Below are positions 4,705 through 36,935 of a stretch of 64,000 nt of DNA, piece after piece; position 1 is the stretch's first letter, and every line of letters starts with the position of its first letter. A program made the position numbers and the translations under genes. The notes under the pieces are model-generated. The model did not search any database. It saw only the letters and a program-made list of their open reading frames with translations, and was not told the origin of the DNA. Source of the DNA: Cymodocea nodosa (taxonomy: Eukaryota > Streptophyta > Magnoliopsida > Alismatales > Cymodoceaceae); contig CM072339.1 of the NCBI GenBank assembly GCA_036874045.1, positions 3,913,501-3,977,500 of the forward strand, read 5' to 3'.

Positions 4705-7351
4705 TCTAAACCAGTTAGAATTCCTGAGAGGAGATTAAATCCAAACCTTAAAAAAGTAGTCAAGAAAGAAATAGTGAAATGGTTAGATAATGACATAATT
4801 TATCCTATTTCTGATAGCTCATGGGTTAGTCCAATCCATGTAGTTCCCAAGAAATCAGGATTAACAATTATTAGGAATGAAAGTTAGGACTTGATACCTA
4901 CTAGAATTCAATTGAGCTGGAGAGTGTGTATAGACTATAGAAAGTTGAATGTTGTGACTAGGAAAGATCATTTTCCCTTACCTTTCATAGATCAATTGCT
5001 AGAGAAATTAGTAGGGCAAGAATATTTTTGTTTCCTAGATGGGTATTCAAGATACAACCAAGTGCCAATAGCAATAAAGGATCAAGAGAAAACAACTTTC
5101 ATCTGTCCTAATGGAACTTATGCTTTTAAGAGAATGCCATTCAGATTATGCAATGCACCAACCACCTTTCAAAGGTGTATGCAGGGCATATTCACTAAAA
5201 TGATTGAAGATTTTTTTGAAATATTTATGGATAATTTTACTATTTATGGAACATCATATGAAGTGTGTTTAAACAATTTAGACTAAGTATTAAAATGTTG
5301 TGTGGAAAAAGTCTAGTTCTAAATTAGGAGAAATGTCACTTCATGGTTAAACAAGGAATAGTCTTGGGACATGTTGTTTCAAAGAAAGGCTTGGAAGTAG
5401 ATAAAGCTAAAATAGAAGTAATTTCTAATTTACCAAAACCTTAATCAGTAAAAGATATTAGATCATTTGTAGGACATACTGGATTTTATAGAAGATTTAT
5501 TAAAGATTTTAGCAAAATAGCTAAACCTTTAACTAATCTATTAAAAGATGTCCCATTCAACTTTGATAAAAATTGCAAAGAAGCATTTTTCAAGCTTAAA
5601 ATTAGCTTAATTTCAACTCCTATAGTACAAGCACCTAATTGAAGCCATCCATTTGAATTAAAGTACGATGCATCTAATTTTACTGTAGAAGTAGTGTTAG
5701 GATAGAAGATAGAAAAATCTCCTAGAGTGATTCATTATGCAAGCAAAACTTTAAATGATGCTCAAGTTAATTATAAAACTACTGAAAAAGAATTGTTAGT
5801 TGTTATGTTTGCCTTAGAAAAGTTTAGATCATATCTGATTAAAGCAAAAGTGATAGTATACATGGATCATTTAGCTTTAAAACACCTAATAGCAAAGAAA
5901 GAGACTAAACCTAGATTGATCCGATGGATATTATTATTACAAGAATTTGATCTAGAAATTAAAGATAAAAAAGGTTGTGAGAATGTAGTAGCAAATCATT
6001 TATCAAGATTACAAATAGAAAAATCAAATATTGAAATTAAGGATAATTTTCTTGATGAACAATTAATGACCATCAACACAATGCCTTGGTATGCAGACAT
6101 AGTTAATTACTTAGTTACTAGTTTAACACCTAAGGATTGGAATAGATAGGATAAGAAATTGTTCTTTTCAAGAGTAAAATATTACTATTGGGAAGACCCA
6201 TACTTATTTAAGAAATGTCCTAATCTGGTTTTAAGGAGGTGTGTTCTAGAAATTGAATATCAGAGCATATTGTCTTTCTACCATGACCAAACATGTGGAG
6301 GGCATTTTGGTTTAGGGAAAACTACTGCCAAAATTCTGCAATGTGGATTTTATTGGCCAACACTATTCAAAGATGCTCATAAATACTGCTTAAGTTGTTT
6401 AAGATGTCAACAAATAGGAAGAATATCAAAGAGGAATATGATGCCTTTGAACCTTATTATTGAGATTGAAATTTTTGATGTGTGGGGAATAGATTTTATG
6501 AGTCCATTTCCTATGTCTAATTAATTTAATTATATATTGCTAGGGGTGGATTATGTATTTAAATGGATAGAAGGTATTCCTACAAAAACTAATGACAAAA
6601 AGTGGTAATACATTTTATAATAACTAATATAATTGCTAGATTTAGAATACCTAAAGCTATTATCAGTGATAGAGGAACTCATTTCTGTAATAGAAGTTTT
6701 GAAGCCTTAATGAAGAAATATGAAGTAAATCACAAAATTGCAACATCATATCATCCGCAAACAAGTAGACAAATAGAAAGTGCAAACAAATAAATTAAGT
6801 TAATCTTAGAAAAAGTAGTAAATCCTACTAGAAAAGATTGGGCTAATAGATTAATAGATGCACTTTAGGCTTATAGAACTGCTTATAAAACAAGCTTAGG
6901 TATGTCACCTTTTAGGCTAATATATGGAAAAAGTTGTCATTTACCAGCTGAAATTGAACATAAAGCTTATTAAGTATTAAAGACTCTAAACACTAATTTA
7001 AATCAAGCTACTGAAAACAGGAAAATGCAATTGATTGAATTAGAAGAATTTAGGAATGAATCTTATTCGAAAACTGTAAGAGAAAAAGAGAAAATGAAGT
7101 TCCAACATGACAAGAAAATTATTCCAAAAACCTTTGAAATAGGATAAGAAGTATATCTTTACATGACTAGACTCCATAACCATCCAAGAAAATTAAGATC
7201 TAGATGGGCAGGACCTTACATAATTCGAAATATTTATTCCTATGGAGTTATTGAAATTGAAAATCTTAAAAATCAGAATATATTTAAAGTAAATGGACAA
7301 AGACTTAGACCTATTTTGAAGATACCAAAAAGTTCCTTTGGAATTATATAA
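4705..7351 (+). pseudogene. pol: pol of element A: RT, RNase H, integrase
   Basis: RT blocks are seen at SWVSPIHVVPKKSG and WRVCIDYRKLNVVTRKDHFP, and IFMDNF lies in the place of the catalytic Y/F-x-D-D box. RNase H (5727-6149) shows MIHYASKTLNDAQVNYKTTE. The integrase (6159-7351) shows CGGHFGLGKT, a Zn-binding HHCC region, SDRGTHFCNRSF, SYHPQTSRQIES and RSRWAGPYI. It parallels B's pol closely. Heavily broken, about ten or more disruptions. Confidence 0.9.
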
Positions 7352-8096
7352 AAAGTAAGAGTAGAGAATTACTCGAGCTTTACTTAGTAAAAAATTATCT
7401 AAGTGTTTGTTTTGTAAAAAAAAAATTTATTTAAACATAATCACGGTTCAACCGAAAGAAATTATCAATTTTACCAAAACATATATTTAAAAGAAAAGAA
7501 TTGTTGTGGTTCAACCGACAGGTTCCATCAATCTGACCGAAACATAAAAAAAATCTATATATTATATTAAGTAAAAATGTCGATTTTACCAAGCATAGTA
7601 TCGATTCAACTAGAGAAAAAAAAGAGTATTTAATTTCGGTTCAACCAAGGAATATAACGATTTGACCGAAATTTTAAAATGTTGAAAAATTAAGAGTCGG
7701 TTAGACCGAAAATTCTTCGGTCTAGACTGAAGTAAAAATTATTATTATAAGTATTTTTATTAGTTATAACTTTACGGAAAGTCCGTTAAGTTACACTTAA
7801 CTCAACAAACTTACTCCATTGAGTCTAGGATAAGTTAACGAACTTACCCTGTTGAGTTAACCATAACTCAATGGAGTACTGTAGTTAAGTCCACAGACTT
7901 AGTCCGTGGAGTTAACTGTAACTCCATGGAGAGGTAAATGAGAGAGTAAGAGTTTGCGCAAGAAAATGACCCGATTACCCACTAAAACTTAGGGTTTATT
8001 TATACTAAAACTTAGGATTTGGGGGCATTATCTACAGACTCGTTTAGAACTTAGCACAATAGAAATCAGAGTGATTCCATTCCGTTCCGTCACACC
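7352..8096 (+). other. Spacer between pol and extra ORF, element A
   Basis: No gene. Between 7440 and 7740 it has several CGGTTCAACCGA-like motifs, including CGGTTAGACCGA facing TCGGTCTAGAC. From 7780 to 7930 it has CGTTGAGTTA/TAACTCAACG motifs in both orientations. The same two-part layout recurs in B (20476-21035) and C (574-1142), so it belongs to the element. Confidence 0.65.
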
Positions 8097-34495: not shown

Positions 34496-36935
34496 TGTTT
34501 AGAATGAAAAAATGCATAATATTAAGGGTTAAATGATGGTTAATTGCATAATATTTAGCTTATCATATGAGAATTAAGCTATTATGTTATAATTGCACTA
34601 TTATATGCTTTAATGAAGGAATCTGCATAATTTCAGGGAATTAATGTTAATTAAGTACATTTCTGAACTATCGGTAAATTGTAGGCTGTGAAATTCTTAA
34701 GTATCAAAATTTTCTGTTATTTCAGAGAGTTATATTTAAAGTATTAGACAATTATGTTTTAAATGCTAAAAGAATATTTAGATACACAATAACAACTCGT
34801 TGAGTTAAAGGCTTAAAGATGTAAAAAGTACAAGTAATAACTCATTGAGTTAGTGAGTAAAAACCATAAGTTGTATATCTTAACTCGTTAAGTTAAAATT
34901 ATGCACGTGTTGAATTTACATGCTTTAGTATATCACGTGAGCTACACATGTTTAACTCGTTAAGTTAGCATAACCATACGTATTGAGTTACTTGAATATA
35001 CACTAAGGTAATGCATTGTGTTAGTAGCTTATAAGTTATTTCTTTATTGCACGTGTTTTATAGTTAAATCAACGAAGTAAGTCTGTTGAGTTATCTGTAA
35101 CTCCATGGACCATTTATTTTCTAATATGCCACTATACTAGTTGTAGAAACAGGACATTCGAAAGAAAATCATGATTACACGTATCACACAAGAATTCACT
35201 TGTGGAATGAAGAAGAAATCACCATCATTGATATAAATGAAGGAAATCCAACCGATCATCTAAGTAGAAGTAGTTACTACAGAAAGAAATATAGAAGAAG
35301 AGGAGAAAGACGAAGAAAGTGTGTGTATAGAGGTGGAGGACCATGCTAACTATAGGAAGTGTCGGAAGTTCCTTGAAGCTCCACACCACCACCAAAATCA
35401 CCAACCATCGAAGGTCTATGAGGATACTTTTTTGATGTCGAGTTGATTCTGAGCAAAATATAGTGACTGACAACCATTGTGAGGAGTGATCACATCGCAG
35501 GAAGGGAAGCCATTTTCACCAAGCACCGACTCATATCTCAGGAGATCGTAAAGCTTCTAGCCTTGGTTTCGGGTTGATGCTAGTATGCTAAAGAGGAGAT
35601 CATCTTACAATTTTGGATTCGCGATTCTATAGGGAGAAGAGGTGAGATTGTAAGTAATTAAGTTTTTAGTGATGTAATCGCGTCGCATGTAGTGACGGAA
35701 GTTTTTACTATCAATAGAGATTTTTACATTTCACCTTTTATTCATCTTCAGGAACATATCAAAACAACAAATTATCTATGTTTACATTTAATATTAATGT
35801 GTTGTATTCTTTGTTTTGTATCATGATTAATGTTATCATTGTTAGTATTATGAATGTTTTATGTTTGTTTGCTTCAGAAAATAGAAAATAGTTTTACAGT
35901 TTACTGAAATTGATTTGTTCCAGATACTTAAAGATTTTAATGGTTACTATTTGAAATATCTGAATGTTAGTGTTGCTTAATGATAAATCTAATATTAACT
36001 AACATTAAAGAGTTTAATTGATGTTATTTACATTTTGTGGAACCGCCCAATTGTTGGCCGAATTCCTTTGTAAATAGCAATATTTAATTGGAAAGATAGA
36101 CTCGTGGAGTTAACTTAAGTCCACGAGATTAGTCCATTGAGTTAGCTATAACTCCATGAACTAAGTCCGTTGTGTTAACTATAACTCAACAGAGTGTTTA
36201 CTGAACACATATAAACTCCAATATAAAAAATCGGAACAGTACACAATTCTTACTCAATCTCTATGGGATCGACCTATATTTGCATACAAATACAATATAC
36301 ACTGTGCACTTATAGTTAAAATACAAATTGGAATTAATATCTAATTTGTGTGAAACGTTGTTTGTTTACTTCTAAAAGTAATTATTGATATAAGCATAAA
36401 GACAAATTAAACAAGTTTAAAAATAGAAGTTAACAAATCCAAACAATTAATGTTTGAAATATCTGAATGTTAGTGTTGCTTAATGACAAATCTAATATGA
36501 ACTAACATTAAAGAGCTTAATTAATGTTATTTACATTCTATGGAACTACCTAATGGTTGGTTGAATTCCTCTATAAATAGCAGTATTTAATTAGAAATGT
36601 AGGCTTGTGGAGTTAACTTAAGTCCACGAGGTTAGTCCGTTGAGTTAACCATAACTCCATGAACTAAGTCTGTTGAGTAAACTGTTACTCAACGGAGTGC
36701 TTAATTGAACACATATAAACTCCAATATAAAAATCAGAATAGTACACAATTCTTACTCAATCTCTGTAGGATCGACCTGTACTTACACACAAAGACAATA
36801 TACACTGTGCACTTATAGTTAAAATACAAATTTGACTTAATATCTAATTTGTGTGAAAAGTTGTTTGTTTAATTTTAAAAGAATTTATTAATATAAGCAT
36901 AAAAAAAAATCAAACAGATGTTCACAACCCAAACA
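34496..36935 (+). repeat. 3' LTR of element A (2.44 kb), mosaic
   Basis: Begins TGTTTAGAATG like B's LTR. The U3 tandem array is replaced at about 34790-35050 by sequence homologous to the Ty1 LTR of element F. The downstream part contains the antisense frame region (35225-35540) and a roughly 500-bp tandem duplication. It ends CCCAAACA at about 36935. Confidence 0.85.
35951..36935 (+). repeat. Tandem duplication of the LTR end (about 0.5 kb period)
   Basis: TTGAAATATCTGAATGTTAG occurs at 35951 and again at about 36454, followed by parallel sequence (TAACATTAAAGAG, a TATAAATAGCA/TGTAAATAGCA string, GGATCGACCT). The period is about 503 bp. The copies differ at many positions, so the duplication is old. 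Confidence 0.85.

Follow-up and report, generated by a model that had tools for sequence, protein, structure and literature searches.

Can gag stand behind pol in a long terminal repeat (LTR) retrotransposon? That gag precedes pol is commonly regarded as invariant in these elements and is tied to the excess of Gag and to the entry of Pol into particles. The question is raised by a stretch of 64,000 nt from Cymodocea nodosa (assembly GCA_036874045.1, contig CM072339.1, positions 3,913,501-3,977,500, forward strand; hereafter the window, numbered from its first letter), whose first 37 kb contain four related Ty3/gypsy copies: an outer element (A), the 5' part of an inner element (B), and two inverted partial copies on the minus strand (C and D). 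We read these copies as an Athila-like family in which gag has been split from pol before the VTLRSG motif and now lies behind the integrase (IN) and an extra open reading frame (ORF), followed by an F-box gene, and we propose that the separated genes are expressed from separate transcripts; to this reading we assign a probability of about 0.78. A split family of this kind makes the link to gag order testable, as the Gag:Pol ratio must then come from transcription or splicing and Pol must be recruited without a Gag-Pol fusion. Software built on the assumption that gag comes first would probably annotate such elements wrongly, as broken or nested ones.

Gene order in the four copies

Gene order was read from Pfam scans of unbroken pieces, alignment between the copies and reading frames; for pol the scans covered the unbroken pieces only. 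Features are on the plus strand unless stated otherwise. The inner element opens with an LTR (13265-15701) that has TG..CA ends, runs from TGTTTAG to AACACAAACA, contains a 235-bp tandem duplication, is followed after 7 nt by the primer-binding site (PBS) and is paired with a 3' LTR remnant (31034-31914) identical to it at 826 of 877 aligned positions (94.2%), although the remnant closes with TA instead of CA. The whole unit begins with TGTTTAG (13265) and ends with AACACAAATA (31914), and GAAGG flanks it on both sides (13260-13264 and 31915-31919) as a perfect 5-bp target-site duplication (TSD). The F-box gene of A stops at 13264 and resumes at 31920, D is uninterrupted at this site, and the joined flanks of A match D at 152 of 196 positions. 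The TSD, the paired LTRs and the uninterrupted site in D show that an inner element, of which B is the 5' part, inserted into the F-box gene of A, the outer element. A first-pass annotation of this DNA had listed A and B separately; the gene order it gave for each stands, but B is nested in A, what it took for two separate LTRs (3' of A, 5' of B) is the single LTR at 13265-15701, and the polypurine tract (PPT) and LTR of A, which it had placed behind the F-box gene, lie beyond the insertion (34484-34495 and 34496-36916). Tandem units of about 136 bp occur in the LTRs of C (3493-4247) and B (13644-13985), and their number differs.

The order in B is LTR, PBS, short ORF, protease (PR), reverse transcriptase (RT), RNase H (RH), IN, extra ORF and the start of gag. 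The PBS (TGGCGCCGTTGC..., 15709-15729) is the sole mismatch-free match in the window on either strand; it may be of the tRNA-Asp type, as in Athila. Between PBS and pol lies a short ORF of 122 amino acids (15838-16206), for which a homologue search found none. The first open stretch of pol (16331-18100, 589 codons) holds VTLRSG at 16511, a protease region with a weak PF13650 match below the curated cut-off, and the start of RT. The rest of RT and the RNase H follow with in-frame stops (18101-19156; PF17917/PF17919 in 18452-19153), then the integrase (19451-20380; PF00665) and the extra ORF (21038-22240), recognised by alignment and by codon comparison with A and C. The first-pass annotation was right that B has an extra ORF, but this is not complete: positions 9315-10108 of A have no counterpart, marking an internal deletion. 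Only the 5' part of gag is left in B (23411-23687, recognised by its translation and start); it is cut at 23687, and the region is 90% identical to D.

Copy A lacks the 5' end of the element and shows RT-RH-IN, extra ORF, gag and F-box gene, then, beyond the inner insertion, PPT and 3' LTR. Its RT-RH-IN region (4705-7290) gave PF00078, PF17917 and PF17921, the zinc-binding part of the integrase being recognised by Pfam and the core by alignment to B and C. The extra ORF (8097-10540) is broken, its ends are approximate, and its PF20167 match (E 1.4e-4) is below the curated cut-off; gag (11312-12658; PF03732, E 2.9e-8) is broken by stops and frameshifts. The N-terminal part of the F-box gene (12878-13264) was recognised by alignment to D, and the C-terminal part (31920-32672) by the match of the joined flanks to D and by its stop. 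The PPT, identified by its sequence, directly precedes the 3' LTR, which has an uncertain end, an internal duplication of about 500 bp and a first part identical to the inner LTR at 1499 of 1919 positions. Copy C (1-4595, minus strand) consists of an LTR (4595-2346), IN (PF00665), an array of short repeats (844-757; see below) and the extra ORF. Copy D (23725-31029, minus strand) is inverted and truncated, lies inside the inner element and comprises the first 190 bp or so of the LTR, the extra ORF, gag, F-box gene and 3' region. Its gag (26706-28049, minus strand; PF03732, E 3.8e-8) is a single frame, read from 28049 to 26706, with three in-frame stops and so is not intact. Its F-box gene (25375-26515, minus strand; about 380 codons, with a change of frame near 26100) has a PF00646 match (E 7e-10).

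Every junction that can be read gives the same order: IN is followed by the extra ORF in all three copies that reach this point (A, B and C), the extra ORF by gag in three of three (A, B and D), gag by the F-box gene in two of two (A and D), and the PBS by pol in the one copy that shows it (B); no gag-to-protease junction was found within the window. Behind the F-box gene comes, in D, a 3' region, which in the outer copy leads on to PPT and LTR. Pieced together with one copy for each side, the inherited unit reads LTR, PBS, short ORF, PR-RT-RH-IN, extra ORF, gag, F-box, PPT, LTR. We consider this order inherited rather than permuted: PBS and PPT each stand at the end where they belong, the spacers are common to diverged copies, and the insertion is TSD-flanked. 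Judged from the sequence, the LTR-bounded unit, with the PBS ahead of pol and the PPT behind the F-box gene, is the natural unit. The first-pass annotation had proposed pol upstream of gag in B and A, with C and D in agreement, and had rejected circular permutation from the positions of PBS and PPT; Pfam, alignment and reading frames bear out the former, and the TSD-flanked inner unit and the spacers common to diverged copies the latter. A circular permutation or tandem artefact is ruled out by the TSD of the inner unit and by the usual placing of LTR, PBS and PPT relative to each other. An LTR remnant between the extra ORF and gag was likewise ruled out, the similarity to LTRs there being short and mainly on the arrays described below; the longest alignments in the whole LTR comparison are about 100 nt.

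The split between gag and pol

When the gag of D is aligned with four fused gag-pol relatives, it ends, with NEINTSFGRAVE and a stop, just before their TLRSG position. The gag of A has its stop at the same place, so that both copies that reach the end of gag have a stop of their own, in agreement with the earlier proposal of a stand-alone gag; in the sequence, the break between gag and pol falls in the linker ahead of VTLRSG. That proposal had also made the motif the very beginning of pol; it does lie in the first open stretch of pol, but 60 codons in. In this stretch of B no ATG precedes VTLRSG, and the nearest in-frame ATGs further up are separated from it by a stop in the same frame, which leaves pol of B without a clear start. 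The relatives P0010, P0011 and P0002 begin at or just before TLRSG, and these may be contig ends, gene-model choices or further split elements. The aligned relatives have a CCHC knuckle (CX2CX4HX4C) in gag; none was seen in the frames of D and A. Of 7991 candidates scored in a search with the stretch 16331-18100, 455 are pol relatives; in the five with the highest scores 78-83% of the query aligns at 44-47% identity, and one lower-ranked match is 58% identical over 29%. No relative was confirmed in IMG/VR with the pol stretch or a gag piece, and a homologue search with the N-terminal piece of the F-box protein (147 amino acids) yielded 12 candidates, all with E above 0.001.

Codon comparisons (w) were set against a neutral simulation with the spectrum of the LTR differences (701 differences, 66% transitions) or, for the D-B comparisons of gag and the extra ORF, with a simpler difference spectrum; the value in brackets after w is the fraction of neutral simulations whose w is no higher. 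Low values were obtained for the start of RT (B-A, 0.21 (0.005)), RT-RH (B-A, 0.34 (0.000)), IN (B-A, 0.33 (0.001)), the extra ORF (D-A 0.30, B-A 0.17 and B-C 0.20, each (0.000)), the N-terminal half of the F-box gene (0.30 (0.001)) and gag (D-A, 0.46 (0.011)), against 0.90 (0.948) in a non-coding control. In the shifted-frame controls the B-A comparison of the RT start and the B-A, B-C and D-A comparisons of the extra ORF separate well, RT-RH and IN (B-A) less well. Graded by the neutral simulation and the shifted-frame controls, pol and the extra ORF were very probably in past use, the F-box gene probably, and gag with less certainty. Conservation in the N-terminal half of the F-box gene suggests an accessory protein, with host control as a possible target. 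Several comparisons weigh on the other side: IN between B and C (0.46 (0.068)), the C-terminal half of the F-box gene (0.61 (0.227)), the D-B piece of gag (1.12 (0.886)) and the first part of the extra ORF between D and B (0.63 (0.424), with an even lower value, 0.35, in a shifted frame) could not be told apart from neutral, and for gag between D and A the shifted frames (0.49 and 0.66) are hardly above the true frame, the differences by codon position being nearly flat (48, 47, 53).

The state of the copies themselves also counts against an inherited split: none is intact, none runs from LTR to LTR without rearrangement, and only B shows a 5' end, so that damage to B, or a front gag lost from it, is possible. 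We nevertheless regard it as improbable that the family has gag ahead of pol, or on both sides of it, and that B lost its front gag by deletion. In favour of such a loss, the region from PBS to pol is seen in one copy only, pol lacks a clear start codon there, and PF03732 stands in the same chain as pol in 10 of the 120 relatives listed; however, the downstream gag ends where the pol of relatives begins, as for a single split, 60 codons of unrelated sequence stay open ahead of VTLRSG, and the gag parts of seven relatives, which match the gag of D at E 1e-42 to 2e-54 (tblastn), gave nothing better than E 0.12 against the 899 nt behind the LTR of B. Even less credible to us is a local accident, in which one rearranged copy, never mobile as a functional element, was multiplied by duplications around this locus; for it speak the closeness of all copies seen (within 37 kb), their inversions and truncations, identities that vary strongly between segments, and the weak selection on gag. 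Against such an accident, the inner copy has paired LTRs and a TSD and sits inside another copy, the divergence between the LTRs of the two nested elements is 22%, and the extra ORFs, with differences at 24-28% of sites in the D-A, B-A and B-C comparisons, still have w of 0.17-0.30, which calls for a long active history.

Half-site arrays and proposed separate expression

The spacers between the genes carry arrays of a 9-bp half-site, GTTGAGTTA, which, with at most one mismatch, occurs 142 times in the window, against 17-33 times in ten random Markov-1 windows. Within the internal regions (28,586 bp), 51 of the 56 half-sites fall in nine clusters that total 973 bp. These stand between IN and the extra ORF in A (7785-7914), B (20762-20849) and C (the minus-strand array at 844-757), between the extra ORF and gag in A (10788-10948), B (22899-23057) and D (28403-28561, minus strand), between gag and the F-box gene in A (12753-12809) and D (26586-26659, minus strand), and behind the F-box gene in the outer element (33034-33090), where D has no counterpart. 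A further 39 half-sites lie in 7,988 bp of LTR, 26 in 1,917 bp of the LTRs of a copia element further downstream, and 21 beyond 36,916 outside the copia LTRs, some of them in small clusters (39893-40216 and 60975-61036). Of the three 60-column blocks over the extra/gag array, two show 92-93% identity of A with B and D, against 52-81% in the blocks before the array. A half-site stands 15 nt ahead of a TATA-like box (15442) in the inner LTR, and TATA-like sequences stand about 170-180 nt before gag in A (11131), B (23240) and D (28220).

These signals have their weak sides as promoter evidence: the limits of the arrays were drawn from the half-site matches themselves, the third block of the extra/gag array is 76% identical to A and the blocks behind the array are 73-91% identical, the TATA-like pattern matches 199 of 736 stretches of 200 nt (27%) and is a weak sign in three related copies, and it has no match at the IN/extra junctions. 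A role of the palindromes as RNA hairpins is not favoured, since pair changes are 27 one-sided against 5 two-sided (58 units were taken by the left arm alone, and the 28 with at least 6 of 9 pairs were used for this count). In the copia LTRs the half-site clusters are mainly direct repeats. Occurrence in the copia and inner LTRs and the mostly one-sided pair changes speak more for a DNA element of transcription than for an RNA hairpin.

Two further sequences were seen in these spacers. A motif like the plant telo-box, TTAGGGTTT, lies between the IN/extra array and the start of the extra ORF in A (7970-8040), B (20925-20960, altered) and C (720-640). Between the extra/gag array and gag there is a 68-codon ORF, open in D (28276-28073) and B (23177-23380) and broken in A; it ends in GTATGTAA, which is also splice-donor-like.

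If the split family was expressed as we propose, the genomic transcript from the LTR would probably yield Pol alone, and the extra ORF, gag and the F-box gene would probably come from transcripts of their own, started inside the element near the half-site clusters, with splicing possibly helping expression of the F-box gene. The first-pass annotation had already suggested separate expression, perhaps from an internal promoter or a spliced RNA, and the signals in the spacers are cis evidence for it. Without a Gag-Pol fusion, Pol would then have to reach the particles through protein or RNA contacts; any role of the F-box protein is likewise one that we infer. We favour internal promoters over splicing, although it is quite conceivable, if short of our expectation, that the same gene order is served by spliced subgenomic RNAs from the LTR promoter, which would supply gag, the extra ORF and the F-box gene, the arrays being enhancers or debris. 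An acceptor-like sequence ending in TACAG stands just before the ATG of the F-box gene in both copies (A and D), TTTCAG (B) and TTACAG (D) stand ahead of the extra/gag array and TACAG (C) ahead of the IN/extra array, and the leader and first ORFs of B hold three donor-like sites, the best by eye being TAG|GTATGA at 16083; moreover, splicing of plant env-like ORFs, including that of Bagy-2, has been reported (PMC7264820). The acceptors are, however, not kept everywhere (CGG at the IN/extra junction in A and B, TTTAAG before gag in A), a strict scan passed four acceptors in eight junction stretches, among them only that of D of the two at the F-box gene and none before gag, and conservation before gag peaks on the half-site array. 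A bolder extension of the internal-promoter idea, which we offer tentatively and think rather unlikely as a whole, would make the extra ORF, gag and the F-box gene cassettes, each with its own promoter built from one shared cis element; such genes could change places and be exchanged, even between Ty3/gypsy and Ty1/copia elements of one genome; gag would be one such cassette, Pol alone would come from the genomic RNA, and the F-box gene would be a captured host-type gene directed against host control.

Known elements and neighbouring sequences

Judged by its sequence features, the family is filed as Athila-like and not as canonical Athila because it departs from the latter in the position of gag, in having no gag-pol fusion and in lacking the CCHC knuckle. 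Like the elements of the Athila lineage (Athila4, Calypso, Diaspora and Bagy-2), it has a PBS of TGGCGCC close behind a long LTR, TG..CA ends and a 5-bp TSD, gag (PF03732) and pol sequence, an extra ORF behind pol, and neither an additional RNase H nor a chromodomain in the scanned pieces. Unlike them, it has gag as a separate ORF behind pol and the extra ORF, without a CCHC knuckle and with an F-box gene next to it. An additional RNase H marks Tat; neither this domain nor a chromodomain was found in the Pfam scans of the unbroken pol pieces. The closest named proteins to pol among the matches listed are plant retrotransposon or uncharacterised proteins. In five unbroken pieces of the extra ORF, PF03078 (ATHILA ORF-1) had no match up to E 10, and one piece had a weak match to PF20167; PF03078 is reported in only 16% of Athila elements (PMC6317226). 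The consensus elements of Athila, Calypso and Diaspora are described with a single gag-pol ORF, gag first, and a tRNA-Asp PBS is stated for Diaspora (PMC1142308).

Among 63 clusters of Retand, gag and pol form one ORF in 37 and two ORFs in the remainder. For Grande of maize, an internal promoter is described that serves an accessory gene, which resembles our proposal, but this gene is antisense and located in the 3' region, unlike the genes here. Foamy viruses also make Pol from its own message and not from a Gag-Pol fusion; the likeness is an analogy only, as they are animal retroviruses and not relatives and, unlike the present family, keep gag before pol. In the literature, as covered by titles and the openings of abstracts, no LTR retrotransposon with gag behind pol and no plant LTR retrotransposon carrying an F-box gene was reported, which is weak evidence in both cases.

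The right part of the window contains a Ty1/copia element (about 51143-62151) with the pol order Pol_BBD, IN, SH3, RVT_2, perhaps a Sirevirus-like one. Its pol order is that of copia and differs from that of the Athila-like copies, but its LTRs are full of the same half-site, its 3' ORF (59456-60301) is homologous to the Athila-like extra ORF (33% over 214 amino acids, E 5e-39), and about 1 kb of it (56863-57861) is 75% identical to the 3' region of the outer copy (33393-34388). By these alignments, sequence is shared across the two superfamilies, Ty3/gypsy and Ty1/copia. One of its two LTR copies has an extra piece of about 190 bp that the other lacks, and this piece is similar to the tandem unit of 136 bp in the Athila-like LTR (61750-61856 compared with 3553-4269; 73-76% over 91-108 nt). 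In the outer 3' LTR, positions 34794-35024 form a stretch with repeats like AACTCGTTGAGTTA; the stretch is about 72% identical to the copia LTRs and has no match to the inner LTR. Close to the end of the window, positions 62784-63691 form an array of units of about 79 bp with ATCGGTTGAACCGAT palindromes and AT runs; B and C have a palindrome like these in their IN/extra spacers.

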